DNA of 41,740 nucleotides. Source: Oscillospiraceae bacterium (GTDB taxonomy: Bacteria > Bacillota > Clostridia > Oscillospirales > CAG-272). The translations under genes and the position numbers were made by a program. The first letter of the stretch is position 1. Each line of letters begins with the position of its first letter. The stretch lies in contig SVSE01000010.1 in assembly GCA_015064445.1 (NCBI GenBank), positions 1-41,740 of the forward strand. The letters run 5' to 3'. This document shows, in pieces, positions 21,248-27,801 of this stretch. The notes under the pieces were generated by a model, which saw only the letters and a program-made list of their open reading frames with translations, did no database searches and had not been told where the DNA came from.

Positions 21248-21278
21248 AAAAGAGAGAACATTCACTGTTCTCTCTTTT
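21248..21278. terminator. Strong bidirectional terminator
   Basis: A perfect 13-bp stem (21248-21260 with 21266-21278) with a 5-base loop and T-runs on both strands. It ends the EEP gene rightward and the ESCRT-like operon leftward. Confidence 0.92.
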
Positions 21279-21313
21279 GTTTTTTAACCACAGGGTGCGA
21301 CGTTTTGCAAAAA

Positions 21314-23488
21314 TTAGATAGATGTTATCTTTATTGCTGTGCCGTCCTTGTCGATATTGCGGAGTCTTCTATTATTCAAAAGAATTGTGTAGATTTCGGT
21401 CTTTTCTACCTTGCCATACTGTGCGTTATATGCATCCCAGTCGGCAACTGTAAATTCGCCCTTCGACTCTATTGTGTCGATTATATATTTTTCAAGCTGT
21501 TCATTTCTTGGCATTTTCGCAATCATATCGATTGATATGTATTTTTCTGCATCATATGCCTTCATTATTTCTGCATAGCCGTAGCCCTTTTCATTGCAGA
21601 ATTGAACAAGTCTTTCATATTTGTCAATATTTAAATGATAGCACGCTGCGTCGAAGTTCTTCATTTCGATTACAGCGATTCTTCCCTTGTAATCTCTTAT
21701 AACAAAGTCAGGGAAGTATCTTCTATTTGCGAGCATTTGTGAGATATAAGGGATTTCAAGCGTTTGCGCCTTCATATCCTTCAAATATCCTGTTGATGCC
21801 ATAGCTGTTGCAAATCTGCTCTCTAAGAAAGAATCACAAATTAGCAATCTCTTAACGCCATTGAAATCAATTTCAAGCTCACAAAGATGCTTTGTTTCTG
21901 CCTCATATGGCTTTTCAACATCAGGGAAAAGCTCATCAAGAGGTGTATCGTCAACCACTGCGTTTTCGGGATAAACGATAAGGTCCTCTACCATTTGGCA
22001 TTTGATTTCGTCTGGAACAAGGCAAGCTATAAGCGTTCTTTTGTCATACTTCGACCTTGGCTTTTCGTTCTCGCTTGTCTTTTTGCTTTCGCTCTCCTCA
22101 TCAAGAAGCTTTTGTGGTACGGGTAAGCCAAGGGCTCTATATCCGTCAGCCATTACAACTCTTCCGTCTCGCTCAACCTTAAGCATTCCACGTCTTACAA
22201 GATAAGCCTCATACTTACCAGAAAGCACATTTGGGCTCTCATTCATAGCGCGAGCAAGGGTTTCAAGTCCAACAGGACCACCGTTGTATCTTTCAATCAC
22301 AATCTTAAGAAGCTCTCTGTCGCCAACCTCAAGACCGTTTGCGTCAATTCCGTTTTCCTCAAAGAACGTGGAAATTACGCTCTCCGAGATGCTAATATCA
22401 AGCTTTTTAATCTTTTCAGGTGAGCTGAAAAGCGATTTGTCGGTAAGGTTATTTCTCTTTGCGTGCTCAACGAGCGCCTTATCGGAAATTCTTCTTACCA
22501 TATTGTTTGCTGTTCTTGGGTTATTTCTACAACGCTTCGAAATCACGAGTGCGTTGTCGTTTGAGATTTTGTAGCCGAGCTTATAGAACGAGCTTGAAAT
22601 AATTCTTGCAAGCACCTCATCGGTATATTCCTCAAGCCTTACCTGAATTGCACGATGAGTAAACGGCTTTGCAAGCTTTCCTATCTCCGTTGTTGCACCT
22701 ATGAGTGTAAATGGTGGCAATTCGAGAGTTTCAGTTTTAGCAAGCTTGCCCTTTCCCTCGGTATAAACAACTCTTCCATCCTGCATAGCCGAGTAAAGAA
22801 TAGCCTCAGCAACCTGCAAGGGGAGTGTATGAATTTCGTCTATAAAAAGAATATCTCTGGGCTTTAATTGCTTGAGAATTGCTATCATTTCAGAAGGTGT
22901 TGCATTGGTAACATTCATCTCAATAAAATTGGAGCCCATTTCGTTTGCAATAATCTTGGAGAAGGTTGATTTTCCAAGACCGTGTGAGCCATAAAGAATA
23001 ATGTGAGGAAGTGCGCTATCCTTCAAGCGAGCAGCCTCAATCAAATCCTTTACAGCAGTAACAGCCTGTGGCTGTCCTATATAGTCAGATAGCCATCTTG
23101 GACTAAGGGAGCCAGTAAATCCCTCTGCTCCCTTTTGCCCATTATAGCCCTTTTTTGATGCACCACCTGTAGCAGATGGTGTATATGACGGTGCGTTATT
23201 GGCATTTTGAATGGTATTAACGGTGTTAACATCCTTTTTAGGCTCTGGCTTTTTAGGCGAGACAAAGGTAGCCGATGCCTTGGCATCGACCTCTGCAATT
23301 TTTTTCTTTAAAAGCTCATAGGTGTCAAGATATTTCTTTTGCTCTGCTCCCTTTGCAGCTTTTGCGAGCAAAAGCGCACATTTTGCACTCTCCATAAGAT
23401 TTTTTCTTGCCTTTTCATATTCTCCCGACGCAATTTGCGCTGTTGCCTGCTTCAAATAAAGCGAGAGCGATTCATTCAAGCTTGCCAT
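21314..23488 (-). CDS. RuvB-like AAA+ ATPase with N-terminal MIT-like and C-terminal PD-(D/E)xK nuclease-like domains
   Basis: Residues 1-70 form a three-helix MIT-like bundle, followed by a flexible linker (71-125). Residues 126-455 are clearly a RuvB paralogue: Walker A GSHGLGKST (167-175), Walker B ILFIDEIH (213-220), PPFTLIGATTE (258-268), a candidate arginine finger R279, and the RuvB winged-helix signature GGPVGLETLA (403-412). RuvB proper is about 340 residues. The C-terminal region (480-724) carries a PD-(D/E)xK pattern: E556 (FLESRFA), PDF with D594, and IEMK with E608 and K610. A small winged-helix-like segment follows (675-724). It is the last gene of the SPFH/MGLF/MIT-AAA operon, 30 bases after the previous gene. 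A true chromosomal RuvB would be adjacent to ruvA; none is here. The role is inferred as DNA translocation or cleavage linked to the ESCRT-like proteins. Confidence 0.85.
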   Translation of the reverse strand: MASLNESLSLYLKQATAQIASGEYEKARKNLMESAKCALLLAKAAKGAEQKKYLDTYELLKKKIAEVDAKASATFVSPKKPEPKKDVNTVNTIQNANNAPSYTPSATGGASKKGYNGQKGAEGFTGSLSPRWLSDYIGQPQAVTAVKDLIEAARLKDSALPHIILYGSHGLGKSTFSKIIANEMGSNFIEMNVTNATPSEMIAILKQLKPRDILFIDEIHTLPLQVAEAILYSAMQDGRVVYTEGKGKLAKTETLELPPFTLIGATTEIGKLAKPFTHRAIQVRLEEYTDEVLARIISSSFYKLGYKISNDNALVISKRCRNNPRTANNMVRRISDKALVEHAKRNNLTDKSLFSSPEKIKKLDISISESVISTFFEENGIDANGLEVGDRELLKIVIERYNGGPVGLETLARAMNESPNVLSGKYEAYLVRRGMLKVERDGRVVMADGYRALGLPVPQKLLDEESESKKTSENEKPRSKYDKRTLIACLVPDEIKCQMVEDLIVYPENAVVDDTPLDELFPDVEKPYEAETKHLCELEIDFNGVKRLLICDSFLESRFATAMASTGYLKDMKAQTLEIPYISQMLANRRYFPDFVIRDYKGRIAVIEMKNFDAACYHLNIDKYERLVQFCNEKGYGYAEIMKAYDAEKYISIDMIAKMPRNEQLEKYIIDTIESKGEFTVADWDAYNAQYGKVEKTEIYTILLNNRRLRNIDKDGTAIKITSI

Positions 23489-23518
23489 TTTCTTAAAACC
23501 GTCCTTTTGATTTAAAAA

Positions 23519-24094
23519 TTATTTACCGAGCTCTGCCTCAAGCTTTGCGAGCTCATCATCAATATTTGATGTTGTGCCAGCTGATGCGCCTGCGCCATAG
23601 AGGATCTTATCAATCTCTTCGTCTGATACCTCATATGAGTTAGATGAGAAATCGCCTGATGAAAGTGTCTGGTCGATCATTCCGTCGAACTCCTCGGTTT
23701 GAGCCATAGCGCCCTCGATTGCCTCATCAAAGCCTGCTGCAATCTTGGAAACATTAACACCCTTCATTGATTCGAAAATGCTCTTTGTAATAGTCTTAAC
23801 TGCGCCAAGGAAGGTCTTCTGTCTTGCCATCATATCACGGCGCTGAACCATCATCCTAGCATCAAGAAGCATCATATATGTACGCTTCTTCTCAGTGATG
23901 GATTCCTTAAGTCCCTGTCTTGCCTTTTCAATCTGCTGTGGAAGATTCTGCTCCTGAGCAATTCTTACAGCCTCGGCAAAAACCTTTTCTCCCTTTTCAA
24001 GCTCAACTATGTGCTTTTCGAGGTCGCGCATGGACTTCTTTATCGCCATGTTGCGCTCTCTTTCTTTTTCTTCTTTACTCTTAAAAAGTCCCAT
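23519..24094 (-). CDS. ESCRT-III/Snf7-like protein (second copy), MGLF start, MIM-like tail
   Basis: The 191-residue, highly helical protein has the layout of ESCRT-III proteins: a short N-terminal hydrophobic element (MGLF), a long helix pair (about 14-50 and 54-110) that is basic in its first half, shorter helices (112-140) and an acidic tail (155-191). The stretch KTITKSIFESMKGVNVSKI followed by a TEEFDGMI-type helix parallels the Snf7 core. The tail ends DDELAKLEAELGK, close to the MIM1 motif that binds MIT domains, with Leu at three of the expected positions but Leu-Glu in place of the central Arg-Leu. The adjacent upstream gene encodes a MIT-AAA ATPase. AAGGAG precedes ATG 24094. ESCRT-III identity is inferred from pattern, not proven. 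Confidence 0.7.
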   Translation of the reverse strand: MGLFKSKEEKERERNMAIKKSMRDLEKHIVELEKGEKVFAEAVRIAQEQNLPQQIEKARQGLKESITEKKRTYMMLLDARMMVQRRDMMARQKTFLGAVKTITKSIFESMKGVNVSKIAAGFDEAIEGAMAQTEEFDGMIDQTLSSGDFSSNSYEVSDEEIDKILYGAGASAGTTSNIDDELAKLEAELGK

Positions 24095-24120
24095 TGTATT
24101 TTCTCCTTAAAAAATATTTA

Positions 24121-25248
24121 TTATGGCATATCCTGTGGAACAAGCATCATATAGTCTTCCTTTGAAAGCGCCTGTCCCTGCTTCTTCAAGTTATAAAGAC
24201 GCATCTTCTGCTTCTTTGTAATCTTCTCAAAGAGGTTTCTAACATCACGCGCGTTACCAAAGTGCACAGGATCACGATTGTCGTACATCTTGCCGAGTGC
24301 CTTTCGTACCTCAATTTGCATTTGAGGATTGATTGCGAACTGGTTCTTTGCACACATTCCCTCAAAAATCTCATACATTTCATCAACTGTGTAGTCGCTA
24401 AAATGAAGAGTTGTTGGAAATCTTGATGTAAGACCTGGGTTCATCTGCAAGAACTCATCCATTCTCGAATCATAGCCTGCGAGAATTGTAATGAACTCTC
24501 CACGACAGTTTTCAACTGCCTGAAGAATTGTACCTACAGCCTCCTTACCGAAGTCGGTCTGTCCACCCTCTGCAAGACGATAGATTTCGTCGATAAAGAG
24601 CACACCGCCCATTGCCTCGTCGATTTTCTCTTGAGTTTTGATAGCGGTTTGTCCAACATAGCCTGCAACAAGATCCTCTCTACCAACCTCAACAAGCTGA
24701 CCCTTATCAACTACGCCAAGTGAATAGAGAATATCTGCCATAATTCTTGCAACTGTGGTTTTACCTGTACCTGGGCTACCTGCAAAAATCATATGGTGAT
24801 TTGTTGCATTGTCCTTAAGGCCACATTGCAATCTATCACGGTTGATTTCAAGCTCTGCAATAAGCTGCTCAACCTCTCTTTTTACCTCTTTAAGACCTAC
24901 AAGCTCGTTGAGCCTTGCAAGCGCCTGCTCAACAGGAATCTTTTCCCTTGGCTCTATTTCCTTTGCCTCTGCCTTTTTAGCATTAGCAGGACCCGGTGTG
25001 GCTGGCTTTGGCTTGTTTGCCTCCTCAATTTTTTGCTTAATGCTCTTAAGAAGCTCAACAATTCTATCAGCCTTTGACTTGTAGCCCTCTTGCTCTCTGC
25101 CATAGGTCATTTTCATAAGCTTTATAATTGCCTCAAGCGCTCTTTTGAGGGCAGACTCTGTCGCTGGGAGATTGCCCTGCTTTGCATAGTTCATCGCGCT
25201 ATCGTAATTGACATTATAAACGCTTTCCAAATACTGTTTATTTTCCAT
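24121..25248 (-). CDS. AAA+ ATPase of CbbX/SpoVK type with N-terminal MIT domain (Vps4-like layout)
   Basis: Residues 5-78 form a MIT-like three-helix bundle; its last helix (KADRIVELLKSIKQKIEEA) resembles the third MIT helix of Vps4. A Pro/Ala/Lys linker follows (79-103). The AAA+ module shows Walker A GSPGTGKTT (157-165), pore loop GYVGQ (196-200), Walker B VLFIDEIY (216-223), arginine finger SRF (R276) and sensor 2 GNARDVRN (331-338). This is the CbbX/SpoVK clade, not the classical Vps4 clade. By analogy it would bind the acidic tails of the MGLF proteins and pull subunits out of polymers. It is flanked by the two Snf7-like genes. GAGGT lies about 9 bases before ATG 25248. Confidence 0.88.
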   Translation of the reverse strand: MENKQYLESVYNVNYDSAMNYAKQGNLPATESALKRALEAIIKLMKMTYGREQEGYKSKADRIVELLKSIKQKIEEANKPKPATPGPANAKKAEAKEIEPREKIPVEQALARLNELVGLKEVKREVEQLIAELEINRDRLQCGLKDNATNHHMIFAGSPGTGKTTVARIMADILYSLGVVDKGQLVEVGREDLVAGYVGQTAIKTQEKIDEAMGGVLFIDEIYRLAEGGQTDFGKEAVGTILQAVENCRGEFITILAGYDSRMDEFLQMNPGLTSRFPTTLHFSDYTVDEMYEIFEGMCAKNQFAINPQMQIEVRKALGKMYDNRDPVHFGNARDVRNLFEKITKKQKMRLYNLKKQGQALSKEDYMMLVPQDMP

Positions 25249-25267
25249 TTTGTTACGACCTCACCGA

Positions 25268-25906
25268 TTAGTTAGAGAGCATCTGCTCATATGATGAGAT
25301 GTCAGCATTTCCTGCATTTGAGCTTTGAATAAATGAATCGATATCGTTTTCGATAAGCTTATCCAAATCGCCATATCCACTTTCAAGGTCAGAAACATCA
25401 ACCTCGTCCATTGTCATTTCCATGCTTGCAGAGAACTCCTCAAGCATATCATTTTGACGGGAAAGCTGCTCCTGTGTCTTAACAAAATTCTTCTGTGTTT
25501 CCATCATAGCTGCCTTATCAATTGTAAGAGAGCCAAGTGTTGATGCAATTGCGCTCATTGAGTTAAGAAGTCCTGTTGAGCTGTCAGAAATAGACTTCAT
25601 TGTTTCCATTGCGTCAACCTGGAAAAGGAATTTTTCAGCCTGCATCTTACGAGTTCTTGCAACCTTGATAAAGGAAATTTGTGTTCTGTAAACATCCATA
25701 TATCCCTTTGACTTTGCCTCGGCTGCATTTTTGATAAGCGCCTGCTCCTTTTGCTCGATTTCGGCTATAAGCTTTTGAACCTTTTTCTTTTCGGTCTTTG
25801 CGGCATATTTTGCTTCCCATTCAGCCTCTGCCTTTGCGTTGTCAGCTGCCTCCTGTTGCTTTCTCTTGATTTCTGCCTTTTCCTCTTTACTCTTAAAAAG
25901 TCCCAT
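25268..25906 (-). CDS. ESCRT-III/Snf7-like protein (first copy), MGLF start
   Basis: The start is ATG 25906, after a strong AGGAGG site. A longer reading to 25927 adds seven residues, lacks a ribosome site and would overlap the gene upstream. The 212-residue protein is helical throughout: a basic N-terminus (MGLFKSKEEK, then 11-45), long helices at about 41-66 and 69-128, shorter helices at 130-166, and an acidic tail (167-192) ahead of a short terminal helix. The first 30 bases differ from those of the gene at 24094 at only two positions, so the N-termini are closely related. The layout matches ESCRT-III proteins; the family call is inferred. It lies 13 bases after the previous gene. Confidence 0.7.
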   Translation of the reverse strand: MGLFKSKEEKAEIKRKQQEAADNAKAEAEWEAKYAAKTEKKKVQKLIAEIEQKEQALIKNAAEAKSKGYMDVYRTQISFIKVARTRKMQAEKFLFQVDAMETMKSISDSSTGLLNSMSAIASTLGSLTIDKAAMMETQKNFVKTQEQLSRQNDMLEEFSASMEMTMDEVDVSDLESGYGDLDKLIENDIDSFIQSSNAGNADISSYEQMLSN

Positions 25907-25919
25907 CGTTCTCTCCTCC

Positions 25920-26843
25920 TTAATCAAGCAAGCCTGGGCTTACCTTGAATTCCTGCTTTTGTTGACCTGCAGGTGCGCTTGCATTTGCGATATTCTTTTG
26001 TGCGTTGAGGGCATCCTCCTGCTGAATGTCGTCCATAATAGAGCCTCTTGAGCTCTTTACGCTTCCACGCAAAGCGTTTCTTTCAGCCTTTGCCTCCTCG
26101 TATGTTTCACGAATTCCAGCAGCCTTGTCGATATGTCTGCCGAGCTTCTCGTTAATCTTAGAAACTCTCATAGCAAACTTTTCAGGGCTCATAAGGTCAG
26201 CGCTTGTAATCTCGTCAACCTCTTTCTCCTTGTCGAGCTCGCTCTGAATTTGAACAGCCTGGTCATAGTTAAGCTTCCAGTCCTGAAGAGATGCATCGCA
26301 ATCGTCAATCTTTGTGTTACACTCTTGATATTCGAGGTCGATTTTCTCGAGCTCAACCATATCGCCAGCATCCTTAGCGCGTCTTGCGTCTGCCTTAAGC
26401 TCTGCAATCTTCTCCTGAAGCTTTGCCTTCTTTTCAAGAGCCTTGAGCATTCCACCCATAGCCTGCGCCTTGATTTCACCGTGCTTAAGATATTCATCGG
26501 TATAGAACTTCTTACCGTTCAATCTTTCAGTTTTGATGAGGTCAAAAAGAAGCTCTGCATGAGATGAAAGTCCAGGAAGGTTTTCGTTCTGTACATCGTC
26601 GTCCATCAAATCAACGATGTGAGCAATTCTCTGCTCAATGCTCTGCATTTCCTTTCCATCAAGCTTCTTTGTCTTTGGGAATTCACGGTCTGCGAGTCTT
26701 CCGATTTTTGACAAAATCATTCCAACTCCTGACTCACCGGCTCCAGAAATATATCTTGTTCTTGAGTGAATGTCCTCAATTCTTGACTTAATTTGGGCTG
26801 TACCCTTGTTGTAATCCTTTTCGTTATATCCAAAAAGTCCCAT
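25920..26843 (-). CDS. Coiled-coil protein with MGLF start, part of the ESCRT-like operon
   Basis: The 307-residue protein shares MGLF and the first 12 coding bases with the two Snf7-like genes, but is longer and otherwise different. Residues 8-125 are helical with a Gly-rich turn (ISGAGESGVG). Residues 125-245 form an extended coiled coil rich in Lys, Glu and Asp. The tail (255-307) is disordered with AQQ/GQQKQ-type low complexity. There is no membrane helix. It could be a third, diverged polymer-forming subunit or an adaptor between the SPFH protein and the Snf7-like pair. AAAGGAG precedes ATG 26843, 17 bases after the SPFH gene. No family was recognised. Confidence 0.7.
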   Translation of the reverse strand: MGLFGYNEKDYNKGTAQIKSRIEDIHSRTRYISGAGESGVGMILSKIGRLADREFPKTKKLDGKEMQSIEQRIAHIVDLMDDDVQNENLPGLSSHAELLFDLIKTERLNGKKFYTDEYLKHGEIKAQAMGGMLKALEKKAKLQEKIAELKADARRAKDAGDMVELEKIDLEYQECNTKIDDCDASLQDWKLNYDQAVQIQSELDKEKEVDEITSADLMSPEKFAMRVSKINEKLGRHIDKAAGIRETYEEAKAERNALRGSVKSSRGSIMDDIQQEDALNAQKNIANASAPAGQQKQEFKVSPGLLD

Positions 26844-26860
26844 TGTAGTTCTCCTTTAAA

Positions 26861-27730
26861 TTATTCTTTTCCGTCTGGTAAAATATTTACGTTAATTGTA
26901 CCGTTGCCCTTTGGAAGCTGTCCATCGCCCTTGCCACTATTCTGTGCTCTGATGAGCTTTTCAGCAACCTTTGCTCTTTCCATATCAACGCTAATGTCAT
27001 CACGCTTGCCCTCGTTTTCGATACCACCGACAACATTGTCAAACTTAGCATCATCAACGATATCACGCTTAGCCTCATGGTCAGGAGCGTATTGAAGATT
27101 TCCGATTTCAACCTTATGTACTGAAAGACCTCTTGAAACAAGCTCCTTATCAAGCTCTCTCTTGATGTCCTTGCAATAAAGGGAAAGCTTTGTTTGGCAA
27201 TCCTCGATTGTGCCCTCTGCAAGTCTTGCTGCAAGATAGGTTCTCACAATACCTGTGCAGGTGCCACGGAGCTCCTCTCTAATTTCGTGTCTTGTAACCT
27301 CATTTCTACCCTCAAGCTTCAAGAATCTTACAAATGTGAAGAAGTCCTCAATATTGTAGTAGAAGTGTCCAAAGGCAACCGCCTTAGCTCTAATTCCGAT
27401 TTCAGAATCCTTGCACTGAATTGCGTTAGGACCTGCAAGTCCCCACTCGGAGTCAAACTTGGTATCAACATCGATAGCTACGATTTCGCAATTTTCATAA
27501 GCCTTGTTGCCACCAAAAGCCTTTGTTGTCTTGCCTGGTGTGAAAAGACTGTAAATTGTAGCCTTGTTCTTTGATGTGTACTTGCTTTCTCCATCAATCT
27601 TTACGATAGCAACAATTCCCTCCTCAAGCACGAGCTCTGTGTTAGGGGCTGCGCCTGTAGAATCAACCTTCCAACAAACAATCTCCTCCTGGGCGTTTTT
27701 CTTGATTTCAATTTTTTCGATTTTTTTCAT
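26861..27730 (-). CDS. SPFH/band-7 domain protein without membrane anchor
   Basis: The 289-residue protein lacks the usual N-terminal membrane helix. It begins with a beta-rich segment (EEIVCWKVDS, then EGIVAIVKIDG) like the soluble YdjI-type SPFH proteins, followed by the band-7 core (about 60-235) with the helix-rich RHEIREELRGTCTGIVRTYL portion. The C-terminus is charged, then Gly-rich. SPFH proteins form rings or patches on membranes. In Bacillus subtilis a YdjI-type SPFH protein is encoded with PspA, a member of the ESCRT-III superfamily, and helps localise it, a close parallel to this operon. It is first in the operon, with GAGGTG before ATG 27730. The likely role is membrane recruitment of the MGLF proteins. 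Confidence 0.85.
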   Translation of the reverse strand: MKKIEKIEIKKNAQEEIVCWKVDSTGAAPNTELVLEEGIVAIVKIDGESKYTSKNKATIYSLFTPGKTTKAFGGNKAYENCEIVAIDVDTKFDSEWGLAGPNAIQCKDSEIGIRAKAVAFGHFYYNIEDFFTFVRFLKLEGRNEVTRHEIREELRGTCTGIVRTYLAARLAEGTIEDCQTKLSLYCKDIKRELDKELVSRGLSVHKVEIGNLQYAPDHEAKRDIVDDAKFDNVVGGIENEGKRDDISVDMERAKVAEKLIRAQNSGKGDGQLPKGNGTINVNILPDGKE

Positions 27731-27771
27731 ATTCTCACCTCATATTGTAATGCATAAATAATATATAATTT

Positions 27772-27801
27772 ATTATAACATATGTGGAATGGAGTTTTCA
27801 A
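27772..27801 (-). promoter_or_regulatory. Strong promoter of the ESCRT-like operon
   Basis: -35 TTGAAA (27796-27801), an 18-base spacer and consensus -10 TATAAT (27772-27777) with a preceding TGT. No other promoter is visible within the six genes, whose gaps are 13-30 bases. Confidence 0.88.

Follow-up and report, generated by a model that had tools for sequence, protein, structure and literature searches.

Can a bacterium build a polymer of the kind used by the endosomal sorting complexes required for transport (ESCRT), and can such a polymer bring a DNA-cutting motor to the membrane? This question is raised by six adjacent genes, here termed P1 to P6, on contig SVSE01000010.1 of an Oscillospiraceae bacterium. 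The whole contig was analysed (41,740 bp, hereafter the window); it belongs to a 1.77-Mb genome that is 97.3% complete with a contamination estimate of 0. The genes encode, in order, an SPFH protein (P1, 289 residues), proteins of 307 (P2), 212 (P3), 375 (P4), and 191 residues (P5), and a protein of 724 residues (P6). The answer proposed here, to which we give slightly better than an even chance, is that they make an ESCRT-III-type polymer at the membrane on which two motors dock by their MIT domains: P4 would remodel it, and P6 would act on DNA there and cut it, probably in immunity.

A conserved operon with ESCRT-III-like proteins and two AAA+ motors

The six genes form an operon whose domain set and gene order are conserved. 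They lie on the minus strand between positions 21314 and 27730, the reading frames of all six are intact, and the gaps between them are 17, 13, 19, 26, and 30 bp in order, which confirms the operon that the initial annotation, made from the sequence alone, had placed there. When 84,980 species genomes were scanned for the P6 C-terminus, with two peptide patterns only and hence with limited recall, three relatives came out (L008, L009, and L010, in metagenome-assembled genomes of Clostridiales, Clostridia, and Oscillospiraceae). L010 has the same contig (113,088 bp) and positions as L006 (genome G488), so the distinct loci are the window and three others. In all three others the six genes are arranged as in the window, which argues that this order is not due to chance and bears out the earlier expectation that it would recur in related genomes. 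Identities to the window proteins range from 21–27% (P2) to 59–62% (P6, against three orthologues), and between L008 and L009 the ratios of nonsynonymous to synonymous substitution rates are 0.012–0.113 for the six genes, indicating purifying selection on each of them.

P5 is predicted to have the helical core of ESCRT-III proteins, with a long alpha1–alpha2 hairpin followed by alpha3–alpha5. The Pfam Snf7 profile matches it at 6.5e-6, with 26.3 bits, one bit short of the cut-off of 27.3; because this match is fragile (see below), folds were examined. A structure prediction built from five sequences (mean predicted local distance difference test score, pLDDT, 78.0; predicted TM-score 0.55) gives helices at residues 7–48, 52–109, 116–146, and 158–166, a low-confidence linker, and a last helix at 178–190. 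When this model was compared with the PDB by Foldseek, ranks 1 to 18 were all members of the ESCRT-III superfamily, as were 26 of the 50 among the matches listed, and these included CdvB, CHMP2A/3, CHMP1B/IST1, CdvB2, Asgard ESCRT-IIIB, and Vipp1. A second aligner superposed the model on the Snf7 core 8wb6 at 1.6 Å over 102 residues and on CHMP2A–CHMP3 at 2.0 Å over 111. The tail helix carries the pattern I-[DE]-x-[EQ]-[LI]-x-x-L in all eight aligned family members and looks like a MIT-interacting motif, with putative binding to MIT domains; the pattern departs from what we take to be the exact MIM1 consensus and spacing.

P3, which like P2 and P5 starts with MGLF, is by profile comparison a paralogue of P5 and hence ESCRT-III-like, its membership depending on that of P5. 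The alignment of the two families by hhalign has a probability of 97.7 and an E-value of 2.2e-12 over 192 columns, and P5 profiles also detect the window's own P3 (E 0.0029 and 9.7e-5). The other five hhalign pairings among the P5, P3, and P2 families and the family of MWPF-starting proteins described below gave nothing: P2 as a third ESCRT-III protein is unsupported (E 0.28 with the P5 family and 0.051 with the P3 family; probabilities 0.2% and 1.1%), as are the MWPF proteins as orthologues of P3. Neither P2 nor P3 has a convincing Pfam or NCBIfam family, and no ESCRT-III chain was matched when the P5, P3, and P2 family profiles were run against the PDB by sequence. The initial annotation had called two of the three MGLF proteins Snf7-like. 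P5 by its predicted fold and P3 by its profile answer to this; P2, without detectable relation to them, is the third protein for which that wording had left room.

P4 is an AAA+ ATPase of the CbbX/SpoVK/EccA type (Pfam AAA 4.2e-15 and AAA_lid_6 3.8e-13; NCBIfam spore_V_K 2.7e-84, below the cut-off of that model). A Vps4-type module with Vps4_C was not found, and the CdvC profile gave only 24.4 bits; P4 may still work like Vps4 despite its CbbX-type motor. Its N-terminal domain is predicted to be a three-helix, MIT-like bundle, with the caveat that small helical bundles match many folds. Foldseek placed MIT domains at ranks 1 to 10 and in 15 of the first 20 rows, the best being the MIT domain of an archaeal Vps4 (2w2u), and the first six rows of the second aligner were also MIT domains. 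Pfam MIT did not match P4 or P6, so the MIT identity of both depends on this fold and on the homology between the two proteins.

That homology comes from the P4-family profile, which finds the N-terminal domain of P6 at 8.4e-5 in the window and at 3.7e-7 and 2.5e-6 in G908 and G909, and which gave no hit on that of G488/G910 among the matches listed. By this profile comparison, the N-terminal domain of P6 is homologous to that of P4. The initial annotation had given MIT domains to both ATPases: the predicted fold upholds this for P4, and the homology of the two N-terminal domains is in line with it for P6.

The rest of P6 appears, by sequence, to be a DNA motor carrying a DNA-cutting domain, in agreement with the RuvB-like ATPase fused to a nuclease-like domain of the initial annotation. 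RuvB_N (6.6e-41) and RuvB_C (2e-14) match, and the AAA+ module, the lid, and the winged helix are all there. The score with the RuvB equivalog model (276.8 bits) falls short of its cut-off of 282, and the motor is 40% identical to a separate 353-residue RuvB-like protein of the window genome, which is presumably the housekeeping RuvB, P6 being extra to it. The TnsA-like N-terminal profile (PF08722) matches the window P6 at 7.8e-4 with 20.4 bits, below the cut-off of 26.5; among the orthologues, L006 passes that cut-off (6.7e-8) and L008 narrowly misses it (24.5 bits, 4.1e-5). Residues E556, D594, E608, and K610 (E, D, E-x-K) are invariant in all four sequences aligned. By the usual motif of such nucleases, we take these four to be candidate catalytic residues.

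P1 matches Pfam Band_7_1 above the cut-off (Table 1), which bears out the SPFH partner proposed earlier, and is 37–40% identical to its orthologues in L006, L008, and L009. These orthologues carry, by eye, a C-terminal CxxC zinc ribbon (the Pfam ribbon matches in L008 are below cut-off), in place of which the window P1 has a short, different tail.

Table 1. Features of the six-gene operon in the window (minus strand unless the cell is empty)
Feature	Positions	Strand	Evidence
Promoter-like site, TTGAAA-18-TATAAT with TG (extended -10)	27772..27801	-	11/12 matches; about 40 bp upstream of P1 start
P1, SPFH/Band_7_1 protein, 289 residues, first gene	26861..27730	-	Pfam Band_7_1 8.1e-7, 29.3 bits (cut-off 24)
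P2, MGLF-start protein, 307 residues	25920..26843	-	21–27% identical to orthologues
P3, ESCRT-III-like paralogue, 212 residues, MGLFKSK start	25268..25906	-	hhalign to P5 family
P4, MIT-like domain and CbbX/SpoVK-type AAA+ ATPase, 375 residues	24121..25248	-	Pfam AAA, AAA_lid_6; NCBIfam spore_V_K
Predicted MIT domain of P4, about residues 1–80	25009..25248	-	AlphaFold2 mean pLDDT 90.3; helices 4–23, 27–47, 50–78
AAA+ module of P4, Walker A GSPGTGKTT, Walker B VLFIDEI	24127..24918	-	Pfam; conserved in alignment A11
P5, ESCRT-III-like, 191 residues, MGLFKSK start	23519..24094	-	Pfam Snf7 6.5e-6; model; Foldseek
Core helices of P5, residues 7–146	23657..24076	-	Predicted helices 7–48, 52–109, 116–146
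C-terminal tail helix of P5, residues 178–190, candidate MIT-interacting motif	23525..23563	-	Predicted helix after low-confidence linker
P6, MIT-like N-domain, RuvB-like AAA+ with wing, PD-(D/E)XK TnsA-like domain, 724 residues	21314..23488	-	Pfam RuvB_N, AAA_lid_4, RuvB_C, TnsA-like N
MIT-like N-domain of P6, about residues 1–80	23249..23488	-	P4-family profile
RuvB-like motor and winged helix of P6, residues 127–458	22115..23110	-	Pfam, NCBIfam
PD-(D/E)XK TnsA-like domain of P6, residues 551–641	21566..21838	-	Pfam PF08722
13-pair hairpin, terminator-like	21248..21278		3' of last stop, between operon and convergent gene

A promoter-like site and a terminator-like hairpin stand where a promoter and a terminator had been drawn around the operon. 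For the hairpin, the scan gave the plus strand only, and a reading by eye of the minus strand is also T-ended. Over the whole region, scans for such elements were no richer than scans of shuffled sequence (13 promoter-like sites against a mean of 11.3, standard deviation 3.1; 8 terminator-like sites against 6.2, standard deviation 2.9), so the case for these two sites is one of position and quality only.

Sister loci with other motors, and neighbouring genes

Is the pairing of MIT and ESCRT-III-like proteins peculiar to this operon? Four sister loci in Clostridia pair related proteins of these kinds with other motors, which are Vps4/CdvC-like in two of them. In a family screen with the P4 profile, CbbX-type proteins were matched in 56 of 246 genomes at 1e-60, and in only four of these rows does the match begin at the MIT start. 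These are the window, G488, G198, and G349, and all four lie beside genes for SPFH and MGLF or MWPF proteins. The G349 locus (L065) encodes an SPFH protein, an MWPF protein, a P5-like protein, and MIT-CbbX alone, whereas in the G198 locus (L007), after the same kinds of protein, MIT-CbbX is fused to a second AAA module of the Cdc48/CdvC kind (L007:1015-3120, minus strand). The giant neighbours of the L007 and L065 cores contain TIR_2 (1.4e-8 and 1.2e-10); that of L007 is a TIR/LRR protein with a weak Hint match, and a 304-residue frame that by eye resembles a phage-type integrase (L065:13641-14555, minus strand) adjoins the G349 locus.

Among 391 genomes of the class, the P5 profile hit 11 at E 0.01, three of them with full-length matches: the window, G1192, and G1176. 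The latter two (L091 and L092) encode an SPFH protein, one or two small proteins, an MWWPF protein, a P5-like protein, and then an ATPase of 370–374 residues. The CdvC model is matched at 6–365 and 6–366 of 370, with 216 and 212 bits (cut-off 650), from residue 6 of these ATPases to their end. CDC48 gives 218 and 220 bits, and Vps4_C, at 19.3 and 18.4 bits, comes close to its cut-off of 21.3. With the CdvC model, the runner-up AAA proteins in the two genomes, in FtsH-sized frames of 766–772 residues, reach 139.5 and 135.5 bits. These MIT and Vps4/CdvC-like ATPases (L091:11435-12547, minus strand; L092:7520-8644, plus strand) directly follow the P5-like gene, and the two loci, which belong to another family of the same class, are the nearest case here to the textbook ESCRT-III/Vps4 pair in a bacterium. 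No DNA-acting protein was seen in their core of SPFH, ESCRT-III-like, and MIT-ATPase genes. Since the motors of L065, L007, L091, and L092 differ, it is the P5-like protein and the MIT domain that stay while the motor changes.

Other candidates were set aside. A screen on gene order returned three of 295 genomes (the window, G198, and one partial, G023, which was dropped as a partial match within a 1740-residue frame), and two phylum screens returned the window genome only (1/398 and 1/388). SpoVK-like CbbX proteins were considered as general members of the system: the surroundings of 14 of the 56 genomes were examined, and G349 alone had neighbours of the SPFH and ESCRT-III-like kinds. In the remaining 13, neither a match from the MIT start nor such a neighbour was found, in stretches some of which were short and had overlapping frames dropped, so that a gene could be missed. 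Weak, partial matches of the P5 profile were also dropped; the two that were examined, in G942 and G1056, lie in frames of 244 and 615 residues with no SPFH or ESCRT-like neighbour.

As to the origin of the genes, P5 had no match at E 1e-5 in 72,556 plasmid and 50,697 phage records. P6 matched 71 plasmid records, none over 80% of its length, and all 20 among the matches listed hit the RuvB part. P5, the P6 C-terminus, and query A4 had no relative in viral contigs, in scans that find close relatives only. The P6 C-terminus was unmatched in five genomes of the window's own genus (G256, G403, G446, G482, and G511), and another genus has it at 63%; this patchy distribution suggests horizontal transfer.

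What follows the six genes in the other loci? In two of them (L006/L032 and L009/L031) the genes run on, on the same strand, into eight more homologous genes in the same order, at 28–56% identity. These encode a protein of 283–317 residues, an SNF2 helicase (1277–1330), proteins of 878–891 and 563–567 residues, a giant of 2365–2541 residues, a protein of 259–262 residues, an LRR protein (1236–1410), and a zinc-ribbon protein. In L008 the contig ends after the first four of these; the window has none of the eight. In PADLOC, the L009 helicase matches DrmD (1.6e-27), BrxH (1e-22), and DpdE (1.2e-22), while the proteins of the window gave generic AAA matches only. MBG and LRR domains were detected in the L031 copies of the cassette proteins, several cassette genes have no Pfam family, the zinc-ribbon protein is TIR-like in its middle by eye without a Pfam TIR match, and the 878–891-residue protein is weakly like a central stretch of that SNF2 helicase (22% over 298 residues, 5e-7).

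What the polymer may be for

The favoured reading, a membrane polymer with two docked motors, may be set out as follows. A patch of the cytoplasmic membrane would be marked out by P1, perhaps with P2, in the way that YdjI acts for PspA in Bacillus. On its inner face, P5 and P3 would assemble as an ESCRT-III-type co-polymer held by short hydrophobic N-termini, and their flexible C-terminal tails would end in a helix docking the MIT domains of P4 and P6. P4 would be the equivalent of Vps4, pulling subunits and thereby remodelling and recycling the coat; P6 would be recruited to the same coat, move on DNA there, and cut it, most likely so as to process or destroy that DNA. Polymerisation, membrane binding, the docking of tails in MIT domains, translocation and cutting of DNA, and a role in defence are what we infer, and two different outputs from one polymer, as proposed in the initial annotation, are plausible. 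The most likely purpose would be to give immunity against foreign DNA that comes in through the membrane, or to limit its damage; genes for helicase, LRR, and TIR proteins near the relatives point to immunity.

Several results weigh against this reading. The Snf7 match is not reproduced in most orthologues: in six relatives scanned, it was weak in L065 (0.039) and L007 (0.39) and absent in L006, L008, L091, and L092. With the second aligner, BAR, bMERB, and PE/PPE bundles tie in Z for P5, the first row being the BAR domain of arfaptin, and in the sequence search of the PDB, TPR repeats score above MIT for the N-terminal domain. The Foldseek E-values of P5 start at 0.05 (to 0.9), none being below 1e-3, and, on the side of defence, the window genome has no match to the SNF2 helicase. 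One explanation, favoured by the Snf7 results, the tie with BAR and bMERB, and the TPR scores, is that the N-terminal domains are TPR-like, that P5 and P3 are ordinary coiled coils, and that a superficial likeness to ESCRT hides an unrelated cluster of AAA+ chaperone and DNA repair genes. We think this improbable, since MIT and ESCRT-III each came out as the best fold in separate searches and the L091 ATPase is matched in full by the CdvC (Vps4) model, its N-terminal domain included (residues 6–357).

Another explanation is a system for envelope stress or membrane repair like YdjFGHI of Bacillus, in which the MIT ATPases serve turnover and the RuvB-nuclease polices DNA at lesions or is a secondary addition. 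It would fit the role of YdjI in the localisation of PspA and the sister cores of L091 and L092 without a DNA-acting protein; yet neither P3 nor P5 matched the PspA/IM30 family (PF04012) up to E 5, so that membership in the phage-shock (Psp) group was not found, the window operon has no extra membrane-protein gene like YdjG/H, the nuclease motif residues are invariant, and the patchy spread is unlike housekeeping repair. We consider this unlikely, if less so than the coiled-coil explanation. Somewhat less unlikely again is that the operon is one module of a more extensive anti-phage island with an SNF2 helicase, LRR proteins, and a possible TIR-like sensor, of which the window has a cut-down copy that may not work alone. 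The cassette genes that follow the six in the other loci and the DrmD match of the helicase speak for it; against it, none of the six genes is broken in the window, a terminator-like hairpin comes after the last one, and the core occurs without an SNF2 match in the examined stretches of L007, L065, L091, and L092/L095.

How, then, does the interpretation first given to this locus stand? Its folds, the homology of its N-terminal domains, its SPFH protein, and its gene order were upheld, and for P2 alone, in part, a result of the kind expected to tell against it was obtained. Its suggestion that the system may act on DNA at the membrane, with phage defence as one example, gains support from the SNF2 helicase in the three other loci and from TIR domains near two sister loci, but the window genome has no match to that helicase. 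We would go further only tentatively, holding it possible that some Clostridia have a true modular ESCRT with an exchangeable MIT-docked motor (Vps4-like, CbbX, both fused, or CbbX and RuvB-nuclease), the polymer of the window being an immune scaffold that calls a DNA-cutting motor. If so, an ESCRT coat would guard a bacterium against incoming DNA. The eight loci of Clostridia in which a MIT ATPase neighbours ESCRT-III-like genes would allow the turnover of the polymer by MIT motors to be tested in bacteria, would show the MIT domain to be a portable adaptor for unrelated AAA+ motors, and would tie ESCRT coats to DNA cutting.

Comparison with known systems

The archaeal Cdv/ESCRT and the eukaryotic ESCRT-III–Vps4 systems resemble the window in having more than one ESCRT-III-type paralogue with a tail helix beside a MIT-bearing AAA+ ATPase, and some archaeal loci (Meth_adaptin) also have an SPFH–zinc ribbon protein (PMC10936438). 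The same paper describes the pairing of ESCRT-III and a MIT-bearing ATPase for archaea and eukaryotes (PMC10936438). The window differs in its motors, which are of the CbbX and RuvB types and not Vps4, in its nuclease-like domain, and in its bacterial host.

In B. subtilis, the SPFH protein YdjI is required for the membrane localisation of PspA, and YdjFGHI is like the window in that an SPFH protein works with a member of the ESCRT-III superfamily; it is unlike it in that PspA is not Snf7-like and that a MIT domain, an AAA+ motor, and a nuclease go unnamed in the abstract (PMC8581546). P6 resembles RuvB in its AAA+ module, lid, and wing, and TnsA-like nucleases in its PD-(D/E)XK domain; it is unlike RuvB in its MIT-like N-terminal domain, in its score below the equivalog cut-off, and in being additional to another RuvB-like gene. 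With DISARM and BREX the likeness is in the DrmD/BrxH-type SNF2 helicase encoded after the operon in all three other loci, a helicase without a match in the window genome.

The closest precedent is the work of Ravi et al. (2024), the main text of which describes operons in which AAA+ ATPases accompany bacterial PspA and Snf7-clade proteins (the latter with a transmembrane segment), reports Band-7 partners and, next to some PspA, a protein with two AAA modules, and predicts ATP-dependent, ESCRT-like remodelling (PMC11237479). It also states that, where Vps4-like ATPases reached bacteria, snf7 was displaced by an unrelated gene, and that the way in which PspA homologues lacking an AAA ATPase fulfil their role is unknown (PMC11237479). 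Neither a MIT-CbbX nor a MIT-RuvB-nuclease fusion is named there, and the word RuvB is absent from that main text (PMC11237479), just as Snf7, ESCRT, and Vps4 are from that of Kaur et al. (PMC7159879). In the open-licence literature, no title or opening of an abstract among those listed described MIT-CbbX or MIT-RuvB-nuclease with ESCRT-III; the sister type may be present in the supplementary data of Ravi et al. ESCRT-like bacterial systems with AAA+ ATPases have already been predicted; we therefore call the DNA-directed motor the new part of this one.

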